A stretch of DNA of 40,876 bases from Holophagae bacterium (GTDB lineage Bacteria; Acidobacteriota; Thermoanaerobaculia; Thermoanaerobaculales; Thermoanaerobaculaceae), in contig JAAYVZ010000272.1 in assembly GCA_012516935.1 (NCBI GenBank), positions 1-40,876 of the forward strand. Direction: 5' to 3'. This document shows positions 27,209-32,843 of this stretch, piece after piece. How positions within the stretch are numbered: position 1 is the first letter of the stretch; every line of letters begins with the position of its first letter. Made by a program: the position numbers and the translations under genes. The notes beneath the pieces were generated by a model, which saw only the letters and a list, made by a program, of their open reading frames with translations, made no database searches and was not told the DNA's origin.

Positions 27209-28345
27209 CTATACCCACACGCCGGGGATGGTGCGGTGGCAGGCGGGACAGGCGCCGTGGTGGAGGCGGTTCGAAAGCACCTGGAAACCGGCGCGCTCGA
27301 TGAGCAGCTCGCCACAGCCCGGGCAGACGGTGCTCTCGCCGGCGTGGCCGGGGACATTGCCCACGTACGCGAACTGCAGACCCTCGGCCTTGGCGATCGC
27401 CCACGCCCGGTCGAGGGTGGCGACCGGCGTCGCCCGCAAGTTGGTGAGCCGGTACGTGGGGTGGAAGCGCGTGAAGTGCACCGGCACCTCGGGCCCGAGG
27501 GTGCGGACGACCCAGCGCGCGAGGTCGCGCACCTCGGCTTCGGAGTCGTTGAGTGTCGGGATGAGCAGGACGACGATCTCGAGCCACACGCCAGAGGCCC
27601 GGATGATCTCGAGTGCCCTGAGCACCGGCTTGAGCTCGCCGCGCACGAGGTCGCGGTAGAACTGCTCGCGGAACGCCTTGAGGTCCACCTTGAACGCGGC
27701 CAGCAACGGCAGCACCTCACGCAGCGGCTGCTCCTGGATGTAGCCGTTGCTGACGACCGTGGAGCGGATGCCGAGGCGGCGGCCGGCCTGCGCGGCGTCG
27801 CGCACGTACTCCCAGAACACCACCGGCTCCGAGTACGTGGCCGAGAGCAGTGGAGCGCCAGCTCGCCGGGCGGCCTTCGCCAGCTCCTCGGGCGGCAGAT
27901 ACACGGCTTTCACCTGCTCCGCGCGGAACTGCGAGATCTCCCAGTTCTGACAGAACTTGCACTCGACGTTGCAGCCCGCGGTAGCAAACGACAGCGCCCG
28001 CTGCCCCGGCAGCACGTGGAAGAAGGGCTTTTTCTCGATCGGATCGACGTGCACGGCGCAGGCCGCGCCCCACACCAGCGTGTGGTAGACACCGCCGCGG
28101 TTTTCGCGCACTCCGCACCCGCCGGTCTCGGCCTCCGCAACCTGACACGCTCGCGGGCAGAGCTGGCAGGCGACCCGTTTCTCCTCGAGCTTCCGATACC
28201 ACGACGCCTCACGAGCGGGAATCTGGTCGCCCGCGACCGTGGCGCCGACCACCGGCTCGCTCTCCAGACCACGAGCCAAAAGACCGAAGCCAGCGCCCGC
28301 ACAGGCAAGACTCAAGAGCCGCCGGCGGTCGAGGTCGCCACTCAT
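27209..28345 (-). CDS. amrS: AmmeMemoRadiSam system radical SAM enzyme with Tat-like leader
   Basis: The 378-residue protein has the radical SAM motif Cys125, Cys129 and Cys132 (CNVECKFCQNW), an N-terminal cysteine set (Cys60, 63, 67, 77) and a C-terminal zinc-ribbon-like segment (CPGCG, CPACH), all usual for the AmrS family. The substrate is unknown; elsewhere the gene sits with Memo and AMMECR1 genes, neither of which is here. Residues 7-26 (RRRLLSLACAGAGFGLLARG) look like a twin-arginine leader, implying export, which is odd for an enzyme that needs reduced electron donors. The ATG overlaps the DUF362 stop by 4 nt. Confidence 0.9.
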   Translation of the reverse strand: MSGDLDRRRLLSLACAGAGFGLLARGLESEPVVGATVAGDQIPAREASWYRKLEEKRVACQLCPRACQVAEAETGGCGVRENRGGVYHTLVWGAACAVHVDPIEKKPFFHVLPGQRALSFATAGCNVECKFCQNWEISQFRAEQVKAVYLPPEELAKAARRAGAPLLSATYSEPVVFWEYVRDAAQAGRRLGIRSTVVSNGYIQEQPLREVLPLLAAFKVDLKAFREQFYRDLVRGELKPVLRALEIIRASGVWLEIVVLLIPTLNDSEAEVRDLARWVVRTLGPEVPVHFTRFHPTYRLTNLRATPVATLDRAWAIAKAEGLQFAYVGNVPGHAGESTVCPGCGELLIERAGFQVLSNRLHHGACPACHRTIPGVWV

Positions 28346-29304
28346 GCCAGCACCTCCCGCACCGCCGCCGGGTCACCCACGCCGAGCCCGTATCGTGCCG
28401 CAGTGGCGACGAAGCTCGGCGGCCGCTGGGCCTCGGCCAGGCGCGGCAGGCCCCGGCGGGTGCGCTCCTCGTCGATGACCTTCCACGCCCAGGCGTCGAT
28501 CGCCACCGGATCGGTGGAGGCCGCAACCATCCCCAGCGGCCAGGCCATGTCCGGACGGTAGGCGGGCCCGCCGTGGCACTGCGCCGTGCCTGCGTCCAGC
28601 ACGGTGAGGCGGAGCTTGCTCCGCACGTACGGGTGGCTGACGACATCGGCGACGTACGGGTTACAGTTGCCGTCGTGGTACTTGTTGGGGTTGTGGATGA
28701 CCCCGAACCAATTCTTGAGCCCCGCCGAGACGCCGGCGAGGTCGTGGTCCTTGACGACGCCGAGCGACACGAGCGCCGTGCAGGTCGCCGACACCAGCCT
28801 CGCGAAGCATGAGCCGATCGCCCCGTGGCTCGCGGGCTGGCGGTCGTAGTCGTTGTCGATACCGAAGCAAAGGAACGGCTCGCCGGAGCGGCGGATCGTG
28901 TACCCGGCCCGCTGCAGCTCGCGGGAGGAGCGATCGAAGACGATGATCCGCTCGGAGCCGACGCCAGCGTCCCTCAGCAGTGCCGCCAGCGCCTCGACGA
29001 GAGCGGGGCGCGGCGACAAGCGCGGCCCGCCGAGGGTGTTGACCTTGATCCCGACCGTGTCGCCCGGCGCGAACAACTGCTTTGCCGCGGCCGCGCCCGA
29101 GCTCGCGCCGGTGGCCGCAACGAGCGCCCGCTCGAGCGCTTCACGCGCCTGCGCCGTCGTCATGTCCGCTCCAACGGCGGTCGCGGGAAGCCGCGCCAGA
29201 CCGACCTTGCCCCGGCGGACCGGGGCGGCTCCGGTGCCCACGGCGCCGACGACCCCGGCGCTCACAACAGCCAGCAACTCGCGGCGGCTCAGCGGCTCAC
29301 GCAC
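28342..29304 (-). CDS. DUF362 domain protein with twin-arginine leader
   Basis: The 320-residue protein begins REPLSRRELLAVVSAGVVGAVG, a good Tat signal (SRRELL plus a hydrophobic core). The DUF362 domain follows, with GIKVNTLGG, the DHDLAGVSAGLKNWFGVIHNPNKYH block and a C-terminal DPVAIDAWAWKVIDEER. DUF362 proteins have no settled function; some are fused to Fe-S domains, though none is seen here. The GTG at 29304 is chosen because it has a GGGGGGCGG stretch just upstream and puts the Tat motif at the N-terminus; an ATG at 29436 would add a long, unlikely extension. It is coupled to the AmrS-like gene by a 4-nt overlap. Confidence 0.85.
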   Translation of the reverse strand: MREPLSRRELLAVVSAGVVGAVGTGAAPVRRGKVGLARLPATAVGADMTTAQAREALERALVAATGASSGAAAAKQLFAPGDTVGIKVNTLGGPRLSPRPALVEALAALLRDAGVGSERIIVFDRSSRELQRAGYTIRRSGEPFLCFGIDNDYDRQPASHGAIGSCFARLVSATCTALVSLGVVKDHDLAGVSAGLKNWFGVIHNPNKYHDGNCNPYVADVVSHPYVRSKLRLTVLDAGTAQCHGGPAYRPDMAWPLGMVAASTDPVAIDAWAWKVIDEERTRRGLPRLAEAQRPPSFVATAARYGLGVGDPAAVREVLA

Positions 29305-29439: not shown

Positions 29440-29835
29440 TCACGGGTGAGCCGACTCGATCGTGAACGACGAGGTTGCGAGCACCTTACCGGCTCCGTCC
29501 TGGACCTCGACTCGCCACCCTCCGGTCGCGGTGGCCGGAACACTCTTGGTCGACCAGGTGCGCCAACGCGCCGCCTTTACCGGCAGCTCGGTGCGCCGCA
29601 CCTCCTTGTCGTTGAAGTACCACACGTGCACGACCTTGTCGGTCCCGCCCTTGACCTCCGAGAAGCAGTAGAGGAGGCCGACCGTGGCCGGGAAGCTCTC
29701 CGCCACCCCCACGGGTGCGCGATCCTCCCCGCCGGTACAAACGATCGCCGTCGCGAAGGCGCCGTCCTCTGCCAGCACCGAGCCGACCCCGATCACCAGT
29801 AGAACCACCACCGACCCGAGCACCGTCCTCCGCAT
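29440..29835 (-). CDS. Secreted DUF2914 domain protein
   Basis: The 131-residue protein has a signal peptide (MRRTVLGSVVVLLVIGVGSVLA) and a single DUF2914 domain: LLYCFSEVKGG, VVHVWYFNDKEVRRTELPV, RWRTWSTKSV and GGWRVEVQDGAGKVLATSSFTI. DUF2914 is a small beta-rich periplasmic domain of unknown function. The ATG at 29835 is preceded by a GGGAGAA ribosome site. It lies 135 bp upstream of the DUF362 gene on the same strand and might belong to the same transcript. Confidence 0.88.
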   Translation of the reverse strand: MRRTVLGSVVVLLVIGVGSVLAEDGAFATAIVCTGGEDRAPVGVAESFPATVGLLYCFSEVKGGTDKVVHVWYFNDKEVRRTELPVKAARWRTWSTKSVPATATGGWRVEVQDGAGKVLATSSFTIESAHP

Positions 29836-29951
29836 GCCCGTTCTCCCTTCGTGCCCCATCGTACCCGATGCCCGCCCCACCACTCACCCGGTCGCAGGTC
29901 GAGAGTCGAAAGCTGAAGGCTCTCCCCCGCGCCCACCCGGCGGGACACCGC

Positions 29952-30017: not shown

Positions 30018-30065
30018 TACGATTAGGCCCCGATGCGAGGTGAACCAGAGGCCCAAGGAGGTTCC
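30018..30065 (+). promoter_or_regulatory. Possible -10 element and short leader of the pyr operon
   Basis: TACGAT (30018-30023) resembles a -10 box, but no good -35 is seen 17 bp upstream. A leader of about 35 nt to the pyrR ATG would contain ACCAGAGG (30044-30051), which loosely recalls the loop of known PyrR RNA sites, just ahead of the AGGAGGT ribosome site. There is no room for a terminator-type attenuator, so any PyrR control would have to act on translation. This is speculative. Confidence 0.25.
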
Positions 30066-30617
30066 ATGCACAGGATACAAGTGCTTGACGCCCGCGAGCT
30101 TGCGCGTGTTTTCGAGCGGCTCGCTGCGGAGATCGTCGAGCAGGTCGGAGACGACGAGAAGCTGTACATGGTGGGCGTCCAGACTCGGGGTGTGCCGATC
30201 GCTCGACGTCTGGCCGAGCTCATCGGCGTCTCCACGGGACAGAAACCACCCGTGGGTGCCATCGACATCTCGCTCTACCGCGATGACATCGGTCCGTGGC
30301 GCCCGGCGCACCAGCAGCCGGTGATCCGCGACACCCGTCTGGACGAGAGCATCGAGGGACGGATCGTCTGCTTGGTAGACGACGTGCTCTACACCGGCCG
30401 GACGGTCCGCGCCGCCCTCGACACCCTCATGGACTTCGGCCGACCACGCGCAATCCGCCTCGCGGTGCTGGTGGACCGCGGCCATCGCGAGCTACCGATC
30501 GCCGCCGACTTCGTGGGCCGAACGGTGCCCACCGCACGAGCCGAGGACGTCCAGGTGCGTATCAAGGAGGTCGACGGCGAAGAAGGTGTCTGGCTGTTCA
30601 AAGAGGTGGCGTCATGA
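30066..30617 (+). CDS. pyrR: Bifunctional pyr operon regulator / uracil phosphoribosyltransferase
   Basis: PyrR senses UMP and binds pyr mRNA; it also has uracil phosphoribosyltransferase activity. The 183-residue protein has the phosphoribosyltransferase fold, with [24 protein letters not shown] and the PRPP motif [13 protein letters not shown] at about 101-113. Length is normal. The ATG has an ideal AGGAGGT site 4 nt upstream. It is the first gene of pyrR-pyrB-pyrC-receiver; its TGA overlaps the pyrB ATG by 4 nt. Confidence 0.96.
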
Positions 30618-31570
30618 GCTTCCAACCGGCCCAGCGCCTGCGCAGCAAGGACCTCGTGGGGATCGACCCGCTCACCCCCGAGGAGATCCAGCTCATCCTC
30701 GACACCGCGGATCAGATGCGGTCGATTGCCGAGCGGCCGATCAAGAAGGTCCCGGCGCTGCGTGGCATGACCGTCGTCAACCTCTTCTTCGAGGCTTCCA
30801 CCCGCACGCGTTTCTCGTTCGAGGTGGCAGAAAAACGCCTGTCGGCCGACTCACTCAGCTTCGCGTCCTCGACCTCGGCGGTAACCAAGGGTGAGACGCT
30901 CATCGACACGGCGCTCAACCTCGAGGCGATGCAGCCCGACTTCATCGTCATTCGGCACCAAAGCCCGGGGGTACCGCACCAGCTCGCCAAGATCCTGCGC
31001 TCGGCGGTGATCAACGCCGGCGACGGGGCGCATGAGCACCCCACCCAGGCACTGCTCGATGCGCTGACCATCCGCTGCCGGCGCGGCACGCTCGAGGGTC
31101 AAGTCGTGGCGATCATCGGCGATTTGCAGCACTCGCGAGTGTTACGCTCCAACGTGCTGCTGCTCGCGCGCATGGGCGCCACGGTGCGCGTCGCCGGCCC
31201 ACCCAGCCTCATCCCAATCGGCCTGGAAAAGCTCGGCTGCGAGGTTCACCACCGGATCGAGGACTGTATCGCCGGGGTCGACGTGGTAATGATGCTGCGT
31301 ATTCAGCTCGAGCGGCAGGGCCGAATGAACTTCCCGTCCCCGCGCGAGTTCTACGACTTCTACGCCCTCACCCCCGAGCGGCTCAAGCTGGCGAAGAAGG
31401 ACGCGCTAGTGATGCACCCCGGGCCGATGAACCGCGGGGTGGAGATCGATTCCCGGGTGGCGGACGGCCCCCAGTCGGTGATTCTCGAGCAGGTCACCAA
31501 CGGGGTGGCGGTGCGTATGGCGGTGCTGTACTTGCTGGCTGGAGGTTCCGGTGAACCGACTGCTCATTAA
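30614..31570 (+). CDS. pyrB: Aspartate carbamoyltransferase catalytic subunit
   Basis: The enzyme joins carbamoyl phosphate and aspartate in the second step of UMP synthesis. The 318-residue protein has the carbamoyl-phosphate motif STRTR at 62-66, the SAVTKGE loop, [10 protein letters not shown], and a C-terminal [11 protein letters not shown]. These are the standard catalytic residues, and the length fits the family. Translation is coupled to pyrR (ATGA overlap), and the end overlaps the pyrC start by 20 nt. No pyrI regulatory subunit is present here. Confidence 0.97.
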
Positions 31571-32843
31571 GCATGCACGGGTAGTGGACCCTTCCCAGCG
31601 CCTCGATGAGGGGCTGGACATTCTGATCGTCGACGGCAAGGTAGCGCGCCTGGGCGAACGCCTCGAGGACAAGGACGCATCGGTTCTCGACGCCGCCGGC
31701 CTGGTAGCCGCACCGGGCTTCATCGACATCCATGCGCATCTGCGGGAGCCGGGGTTCGAGTACAAAGAGACCATCGCCTCCGGGGTTGCTGCCGCCGTCG
31801 CGGGAGGATTCACGGCCGTGTGCTGCATGGCCAATACTCAGCCGGTCAACGATTGTGCGGCGGTGACCGAGCTCATCCGCTCGCGAGCAGCAGCCGCCGA
31901 CCTTGCGCACGTGTACCCGATCGGCGCCGTTTCCAAAGGGCTCGCCGGCGAAGAGCTGGCCGAGTTCGGCGAGATGGTGCAGACCGGAGCGGTGGCGTTC
32001 TCCGACGACGGCAAACCGGTGCACAACAGCTACCTCATGCGACGGGCGCTGGAGTACGCGCAGCTCTTCGATGTGCCGGTCATCGATCACTGCGAGGACC
32101 TCGATCTGGTGGCCAAGGGGGTGATGCACGAAGGAGCGGTGAGCACTCGGCTGGGCTTGCGGGCGATCCCGAGCGCCGCTGAGGACGCGATGGTGGCTCG
32201 CGATATCGTGCTCGCCGAGCTGACCGGCGGCCACGTGCACATCGCCCACCTGTCGACCAAAGGGGCCATGGAGATGGTGCGTACCGCCAAGGCCAGGGGG
32301 CTTTTGGTCAGCTGCGAGGTCACGCCTCACCACCTGGCGCTCTCCGATCAGGCCGTGGCCGACTCCGACTTCGACACCAACACCAAGGTCAACCCGCCGT
32401 TGCGCTCTGCCGACCACGCGGAGGCGCTCATCCACGGCGTCATGGACGGGCTCGTCGACTGTCTGGCGACCGACCACGCACCGCACCATGCGGACGAGAA
32501 GGCGCAGGAGTACGACGTGGCGCCGTTCGGGATGGTGGGGCTCGAGACCGCACTCCCGGTCACCTATGACCTTCTCGTGCTCAAGCGCAAGCTACCGTTG
32601 CGGCTGTGGATCCAGCTCTGGTCCACCAACCCGGCCCGGCTGCTGAAGCTACCCGGCGGCACCCTCAAGCCGGGCTCCCCCGCCGACATCACGCTCCTGC
32701 ACCTCGACAGGACCGCCGTCGTGATCCCCGAGAAGTTCCGTTCCCTCTCGCGCAACACGCCGTTCGGAGGGCGGCGCCTGCGCGGCTGGCCGGCTGCTAC
32801 GATTGTCGGTGGGAGGGTCGTCTGGCAGCGTGAGCGAAGATAG
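31551..32843 (+). CDS. pyrC: Dihydroorotase (type I)
   Basis: The zinc enzyme closes carbamoyl aspartate to dihydroorotate. The 430-residue protein has the metal motif HAHLREPG (His61, His63), an MANTQPVND block, [26 protein letters not shown] and the DHAPHH motif that carries the catalytic Asp. Length and motifs point to the long type I (class PyrC/PyrX) form; since the metal-binding residues are intact it should be active. The start is a GTG at 31551 with GGAGGT 5 nt upstream, inside the pyrB end. It overlaps the receiver-domain gene by 14 nt. Confidence 0.96.

Follow-up and report, generated by a model that had tools for sequence, protein, structure and literature searches.

We propose that the adjacent AmrS-family radical SAM and DUF362 genes of a Holophagae bacterium encode the Tat-exported half of an AmmeMemoRadiSam system that works outside the cytoplasm and has a dedicated transmembrane electron wire. 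We regard this reading as likely, with export and electron flow inferred; its basis, i.e., conserved leaders, synteny, co-occurrence, gene fusion, and intact catalytic residues, is shown. The system would be a widespread, uncharacterized version of AmmeMemoRadiSam in which nearly every component has, as inferred from sequence, an export signal. Radical SAM enzymes are generally treated as cytoplasmic and as needing SAM and strongly reducing electrons.

Gene content of the window

The window is the whole 40,876-nt stretch of DNA analyzed (contig JAAYVZ010000272.1 of assembly GCA_012516935.1), and its relevant features are listed in Table 1. An earlier, sequence-only reading had described here an AmrS-type radical SAM enzyme and a DUF362 protein, both with twin-arginine leaders and encoded by genes overlapping by 4 nt (ATGA, positions 28342 to 28345), and all of this held. 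The AmrS protein (378 amino acids) scored 369 bits against NCBIfam TIGR04337 (AmmeMemoSam_rS; cutoff of 220) in the profile search, and the DUF362 protein likewise exceeded its cutoff. The leaders are MSGDLDRRRLLSLACAGAGFGLLA in AmrS and VREPLSRRELLAVVSAGVVGAVGTGAA in DUF362; the GTG start of the latter agrees with starts in relatives, and the longest open reading frame reaches 29436. The genome encodes TatC. The same reading had inferred that Tat export of the pair would mean either radical SAM chemistry in the periplasm or a complex anchored in the membrane, which is supported and extended below, with export remaining an inference from sequence. It had also pointed to a secreted DUF2914 protein encoded just upstream: the gene is real, but the neighbor is not conserved, being absent beside other copies of the pair, and it was rejected as a part of the system and is probably incidental.

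Table 1. Features of the window and cysteine motifs of its AmrS protein
Feature	Position	Strand	Details
AmrS-family radical SAM gene	27209..28345	minus	TIGR04337 match; ATG at 28345, stop at 27209
DUF362 gene	28342..29304	minus	PF04015, 80 bits (cutoff of 24); GTG at 29304; putative Tat leader VREPLSRRELLAVVSAGVVGAVG
DUF2914 gene	29440..29883	minus	PF11141, 78 bits; Sec-like signal, start MRRTVLGSVVVLLVIGVGSVLA
pyrR, aspartate carbamoyltransferase, and dihydroorotase genes	30033-32843	plus	A short way upstream of the AmrS/DUF362 pair
AmrS N-terminal motif	C60 C63 C67 C77		
AmrS radical SAM motif	C125/C129/C132		CxxxCxxC
AmrS C-terminal motif	C341/C344/C366/C369		Zinc-ribbon-like

AmrS groups, leader conservation, and distribution

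Searching 60 relatives with TIGR04337 recovered three AmrS groups, scoring ∼630, ∼345 to 393, and ∼270 to 314 bits, and the window AmrS falls in the second (group 2, here AmrS2). Groups 1 and 3 each formed one starred branch in a tree of 141 AmrS sequences. Stops apparently lying inside group 2 genes were dismissed as matches running beyond the terminal stop, because the group 2 open reading frames are full length without stops. The window's genome has one group 2 and one group 3 gene; the latter, leaderless, lies on contig C106 (L055), and neither there nor in relatives (L056 to L074) are the tested system parts beside it.

Absence of the leader from orthologues would have counted against export, but this did not occur: the leader is nearly universal in AmrS2. 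By a fixed rule (RR, a start codon nearby, and an uncharged hydrophobic run), it was present in 94/104 AmrS2 proteins from about 20 phyla, with 4 more recognized by eye, versus 0/17 and 2/20 (2/37 together) in the other two AmrS groups of the class, where the two scoring paralogues resemble out-of-frame artifacts. Out-of-frame translations of the same DNA scored in 5/208 cases, and these out-of-frame and paralogue controls exclude wrong start codons as the origin of the leaders. The AmrS2 loci of the class that were scanned first carried RR leaders except for a few divergent copies. Four AmrS2 proteins (L035, L020, L166, and L157) have no leader of any kind, and two (L162 and L159) have, by eye, Sec-like starts.

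The leaders satisfy what is expected of Tat substrates, i.e., RRx[FL] followed by a moderately hydrophobic region and conserved in orthologues; Tat-dependent export itself is inferred. The consensus position is F in 58 and L in 18 of the 94 scoring proteins, and the hydrophobicity of the leaders (median of 1.77) is below that of the Memo-AMMECR1 Sec signals (median of 2.54; P = 6e-16), as expected for Tat versus Sec.

When 84,980 species genomes were scanned, at least 80 loci were recovered, a lower bound since only the best were counted. They occur in Acidobacteriota, Aminicenantes, Zixibacteria, Planctomycetota (including Brocadia), Latescibacterota, KSB1, Eisenbacteria, Krumholzibacteriota, Neomarinimicrobiota, Verrucomicrobia and relatives, Deltaproteobacteria, Myxococcales, Poribacteria, Omnitrophota, Anaerolineae, Sumerlaeota, Elusimicrobia, and others.

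The RR-hydrophobic segment could alternatively be a membrane tether, holding AmrS and DUF362 at the inner face for cytoplasmic chemistry with ordinary SAM and ferredoxin. In its favor, no radical SAM enzyme is known to work outside the cytoplasm, and some AmrS2 members lack the leader entirely. Nevertheless, we consider a tether unlikely: a plain anchor does not need the RRx[FL] consensus, which is conserved across about 20 phyla, and the Sec signals and lipoboxes of Memo-AMMECR1, the triple fusion, and the dual-targeted polyferredoxin described below all indicate the outside.

Catalytic residues and fold of AmrS2

Each of the seven cysteines of the N-terminal and radical SAM motifs is present in 100% of 104 aligned AmrS2 sequences. 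The Gly in the SNG region is retained, as are TY-x-E/D-P and both Asp and Lys of DLK. The closest match, by both alignment and fold, is the pyruvate formate-lyase (PFL)-activating enzyme. AmrS2 thus meets the motif and SAM-site requirements for membership of the radical SAM superfamily; membership is inferred from these residues and the fold, and reductive cleavage of SAM is likewise an inference.

A second alternative is that exported AmrS performs no SAM catalysis and, as an Fe-S carrier or scaffold, passes electrons between the polyferredoxin and Memo-AMMECR1. SAM would then not be required outside the cytoplasm, and the GGE motif of PflA is indeed replaced by TYSEP or TYTEP in AmrS2. However, the cluster- and SAM-binding residues of AmrS2 are as conserved as those of the leaderless groups, which themselves have TYNEP or TYNDP, and DLK and TY-x-E/D-P are essentially invariant. 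A carrier role is therefore improbable.

DUF362 and other neighboring genes

The pairing recurs, as do the AmrS leaders, widely: a DUF362 gene of the window's type (DUF362B) is directly upstream of AmrS in 70/103 loci, the other 33/103 having no adjacent DUF362B. Among scorable pairs, an RR leader was found on both proteins in 42, on AmrS only in 23 (3 of them scoring failures), on DUF362 only in 1, and on neither in none. The expectation that both partners have leaders thus needs correction, since the DUF362 proteins of about 20 adjacent pairs, chiefly from Aminicenantes and Zixibacteria, have none; these proteins may hitchhike on AmrS or may remain cytoplasmic. The pattern could fit a complex exported as a unit for which one leader is enough, but it is merely suggestive because AmrS nearly always has the leader. 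One locus (L035:4449-5525) presents the reverse hitchhiker case: its AmrS2 is leaderless, but the neighboring DUF362 has an RR leader and the neighboring Memo-AMMECR1 has a signal.

The predicted structure of DUF362 (mean pLDDT of 93) matches the fold of LarA-type nickel-pincer racemases (E value of about 4e-6), consistent with the placement of DUF362 and LarA in the same Pfam clan. DUF362 did not reach the curated Lar family cutoffs in profile searches, and a sequence search of the PDB gave no match indicating function; only the fold search was informative.

These features raise a third possibility, that AmrS and DUF362 do their work on each other or on a cargo (e.g., placing a cofactor onto DUF362) once, in the cytoplasm, and that the modified complex is then exported. 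The frequent adjacency, with no scorable pair lacking an RR leader altogether, fits such co-export, and the 4-nt overlap and the LarA-like fold of DUF362 also speak for this possibility. We nevertheless consider it very unlikely, as it leaves the Sec-exported Memo-AMMECR1 and the polyferredoxin unexplained and there is no adjacent DUF362B at a third of the loci (33/103).

Unbiased clustering of neighbors at about 100 loci found no gene for a dedicated peptide or protein substrate. The only cross-phylum neighbors in that clustering were DUF362 (A and B), Memo-AMMECR1, the polyferredoxin, and DUF6599, the remaining clusters being lineage synteny or antisense shadow open reading frames. In many Aminicenantes, DUF6599 is ∼1.5 kb from AmrS2 on the opposite strand and might be another exported component. 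Many Aminicenantes also have pyrR and dihydroorotase genes 5 to 6 kb upstream of AmrS2, probably through chance or old synteny.

Memo-AMMECR1 fusion

The sequence-only reading had suggested looking elsewhere in the genome for memo and AMMECR1 genes. They were found, as a single fused gene on another contig, C192, whose product scored 219.8 bits for TIGR04336 (cutoff of 26) and 150.4 bits for TIGR04335 (cutoff of 99) and has a short leader, MRRRWVAMGVLMMGWNLHGE. Upstream of it are a polyferredoxin gene and, preceding that, a DUF6599 gene and a second DUF362 gene (Npun_F2552-like, with its own RR leader), noted at L033:11-1404. The gene linkage expected of AmmeMemoRadiSam is met in many relatives, while in the draft genome of the window the two halves of the system are on different contigs, a caveat to the exported-system reading, as is the shortness of the Memo leader in this genome.

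Fusions next to AmrS2 in relatives are predicted to be exported: they have Sec-type signals ending just ahead of the Memo domain, with a lipobox in some. Stand-alone Memo proteins of the class (n = 22) begin at the domain and have no signal. At L157, the leader is missing from both AmrS and Memo. A planctomycetotal protein of about 767 amino acids (L161:4565-6868) is a single polypeptide in which a signal is followed by Memo, AMMECR1, and AmrS domains, and its three domains must therefore be on the same side of the membrane; it is also an attractive single protein for structural or biochemical work. One genus (G004, G007, and G009) lacks AmrS2 but has Memo and AMMECR1 fused as in the exported type. 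The only such fusion inspected (L193, from G009) starts MSPVRPPAVAG and has no signal, possibly as if returned to the cytoplasm.

Polyferredoxin and proposed electron supply

The sequence-only reading had raised the concern that radical SAM enzymes need low-potential electrons, for which the polyferredoxin encoded on C192 (495 amino acids, NapH followed by NapG) is a candidate source. Its four membrane segments are followed by PDLSRRAAIGTAVTTLAVAPLL and a multicluster ferredoxin domain, and it meets the criteria for dual targeting (NapH-type transmembrane region, RR before a fifth segment, and NapG-type four-cluster domain). Export of the ferredoxin domain in this family has been shown by others: in Escherichia coli, Sec inserts the first segments of the MLMS-1 polyferredoxin and Tat places a C-terminal reporter outside, the construct tested being its transmembrane region with the twin arginines (PMC5449189).

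Two lines of evidence link this protein to AmrS2. First, its gene is in or near the AmrS2 operon at L042, L049, L043, L076, and L144. At L042 and L049, DUF362A, polyferredoxin, Memo-AMMECR1, DUF362B, and AmrS genes form a single run in that order, and in Neomarinimicrobiota (L144) the order is DUF362A, polyferredoxin, AmrS, and Memo-AMMECR1. Second, the two co-occur. Among 60 relatives, 27 had both, 8 AmrS2 only, 1 polyferredoxin only, and 24 neither (P = 7e-9); for 197 genomes of the phylum, with AmrS2 presence set at 450 bits, the respective numbers were 44, 6, 17, and 130 (P = 2e-23), and outside the window's class 39, 5, 17, and 111 (P = 8e-20). The P values are not corrected for relatedness or shared ancestry, and there are exceptions: 17/147 Acidobacteriota genomes without clear AmrS2 have the polyferredoxin, and 6/50 with AmrS2 lack it. 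Quinol is insufficiently reducing for a radical SAM cluster, and the polyferredoxin would therefore need low-potential cytoplasmic donors. Electron flow from polyferredoxin to AmrS, like export of AmrS, DUF362, and Memo-AMMECR1, is inferred.

Proposed mechanism

We predict the following. (i) AmrS would gain its [4Fe-4S] cluster and fold in the cytoplasm, and Tat would export the folded enzyme, with DUF362 leaving together with it through its own leader or as a hitchhiker. (ii) The Memo-AMMECR1 fusion would be exported by Sec and fold outside with its Memo metal site. (iii) The NapH-NapG polyferredoxin would pass electrons across the membrane to AmrS through, by analogy with the characterized homologue, three [4Fe-4S] clusters on the cytoplasmic side and four outside. 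(iv) AmrS would cleave SAM for radical chemistry on an envelope substrate, on which Memo and AMMECR1 would also act. This combination gives every part a role.

No source of SAM outside the cytoplasm is known. SAM might, speculatively, be held in the folded enzyme and regenerated at each turnover, or it might be imported. SAM is regenerated at each turnover by spore photoproduct lyase and by lysine 2,3-aminomutase; retained SAM is a conjecture drawn from that chemistry and not evidence. A bolder reading, which we would neither back nor dismiss, is that about 20 phyla run extracytoplasmic radical SAM catalysis, with a Tat-exported AmrS, a seven-cluster transmembrane polyferredoxin, retained SAM regenerated as a cofactor, and an envelope substrate modified together with exported Memo-AMMECR1.

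If the proposal is true, an exported set with a membrane electron wire would overturn the cytoplasm-only rule for radical SAM enzymes, and an orphan dual-targeted polyferredoxin would gain a partner. It would also provide a handle on the function of Memo and AMMECR1, which are also present in human cells and whose substrate would have to be sought outside the cytoplasm in these bacteria. Neither an exported AmmeMemoRadiSam nor an extracytoplasmic radical SAM enzyme was found in the open-access literature searched, although prior mention is not excluded.

Comparison with known systems

The PFL-activating enzyme (3CB8 and 3C8F) shares CxxxCxxC, the SAM-site motifs, and DLK with AmrS2, but it is cytoplasmic and activates a glycyl radical enzyme, whereas AmrS has a leader and additional N- and C-terminal Cys motifs. 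LarA-type nickel-pincer-nucleotide racemases (7S91 and 6D6Z) resemble DUF362 in fold, with a TM-score of <0.5 and 15% identity; LarA has a nickel-pincer cofactor, none has been shown for DUF362, and the comparison rests on fold only. The fusion can be aligned with MEMO1 (7KQ8 and 3BCZ) along the whole of its Memo domain, which keeps PHAGY, GPSH, and CG, which we take to be the motifs holding the MEMO1 metal ligands; unlike MEMO1, the fusion has a signal and a fused AMMECR1. The polyferredoxin PFD of the deltaproteobacterium MLMS-1 (Q1NSB0; Tooke et al. 2017, PMC5449189) and the C192 protein have in common four NapH-type segments, an SRR motif ahead of a weakly hydrophobic fifth segment, and a NapG-type four-cluster domain. 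The relevant sections of that paper name no partner or function for Q1NSB0, whereas the homologue here is tied to AmmeMemoRadiSam genes.

The known AmmeMemoRadiSam system consists of AMMECR1 (TIGR04335), Memo (TIGR04336), and the radical SAM protein (TIGR04337), all three defined in NCBIfam as hypothetical equivalogs only; Memo-AMMECR1 systems are treated in a 2019 analysis by Burroughs et al. (cited in PMC7159879). All three models are above cutoff in the window's genome, and the catalytic residues of AmrS2 match those of the leaderless groups. Signals are absent from stand-alone Memo proteins and from the leaderless AmrS groups of the same class; the variant described here differs in its export signals, its fused Memo-AMMECR1, and its DUF362 and polyferredoxin partners.
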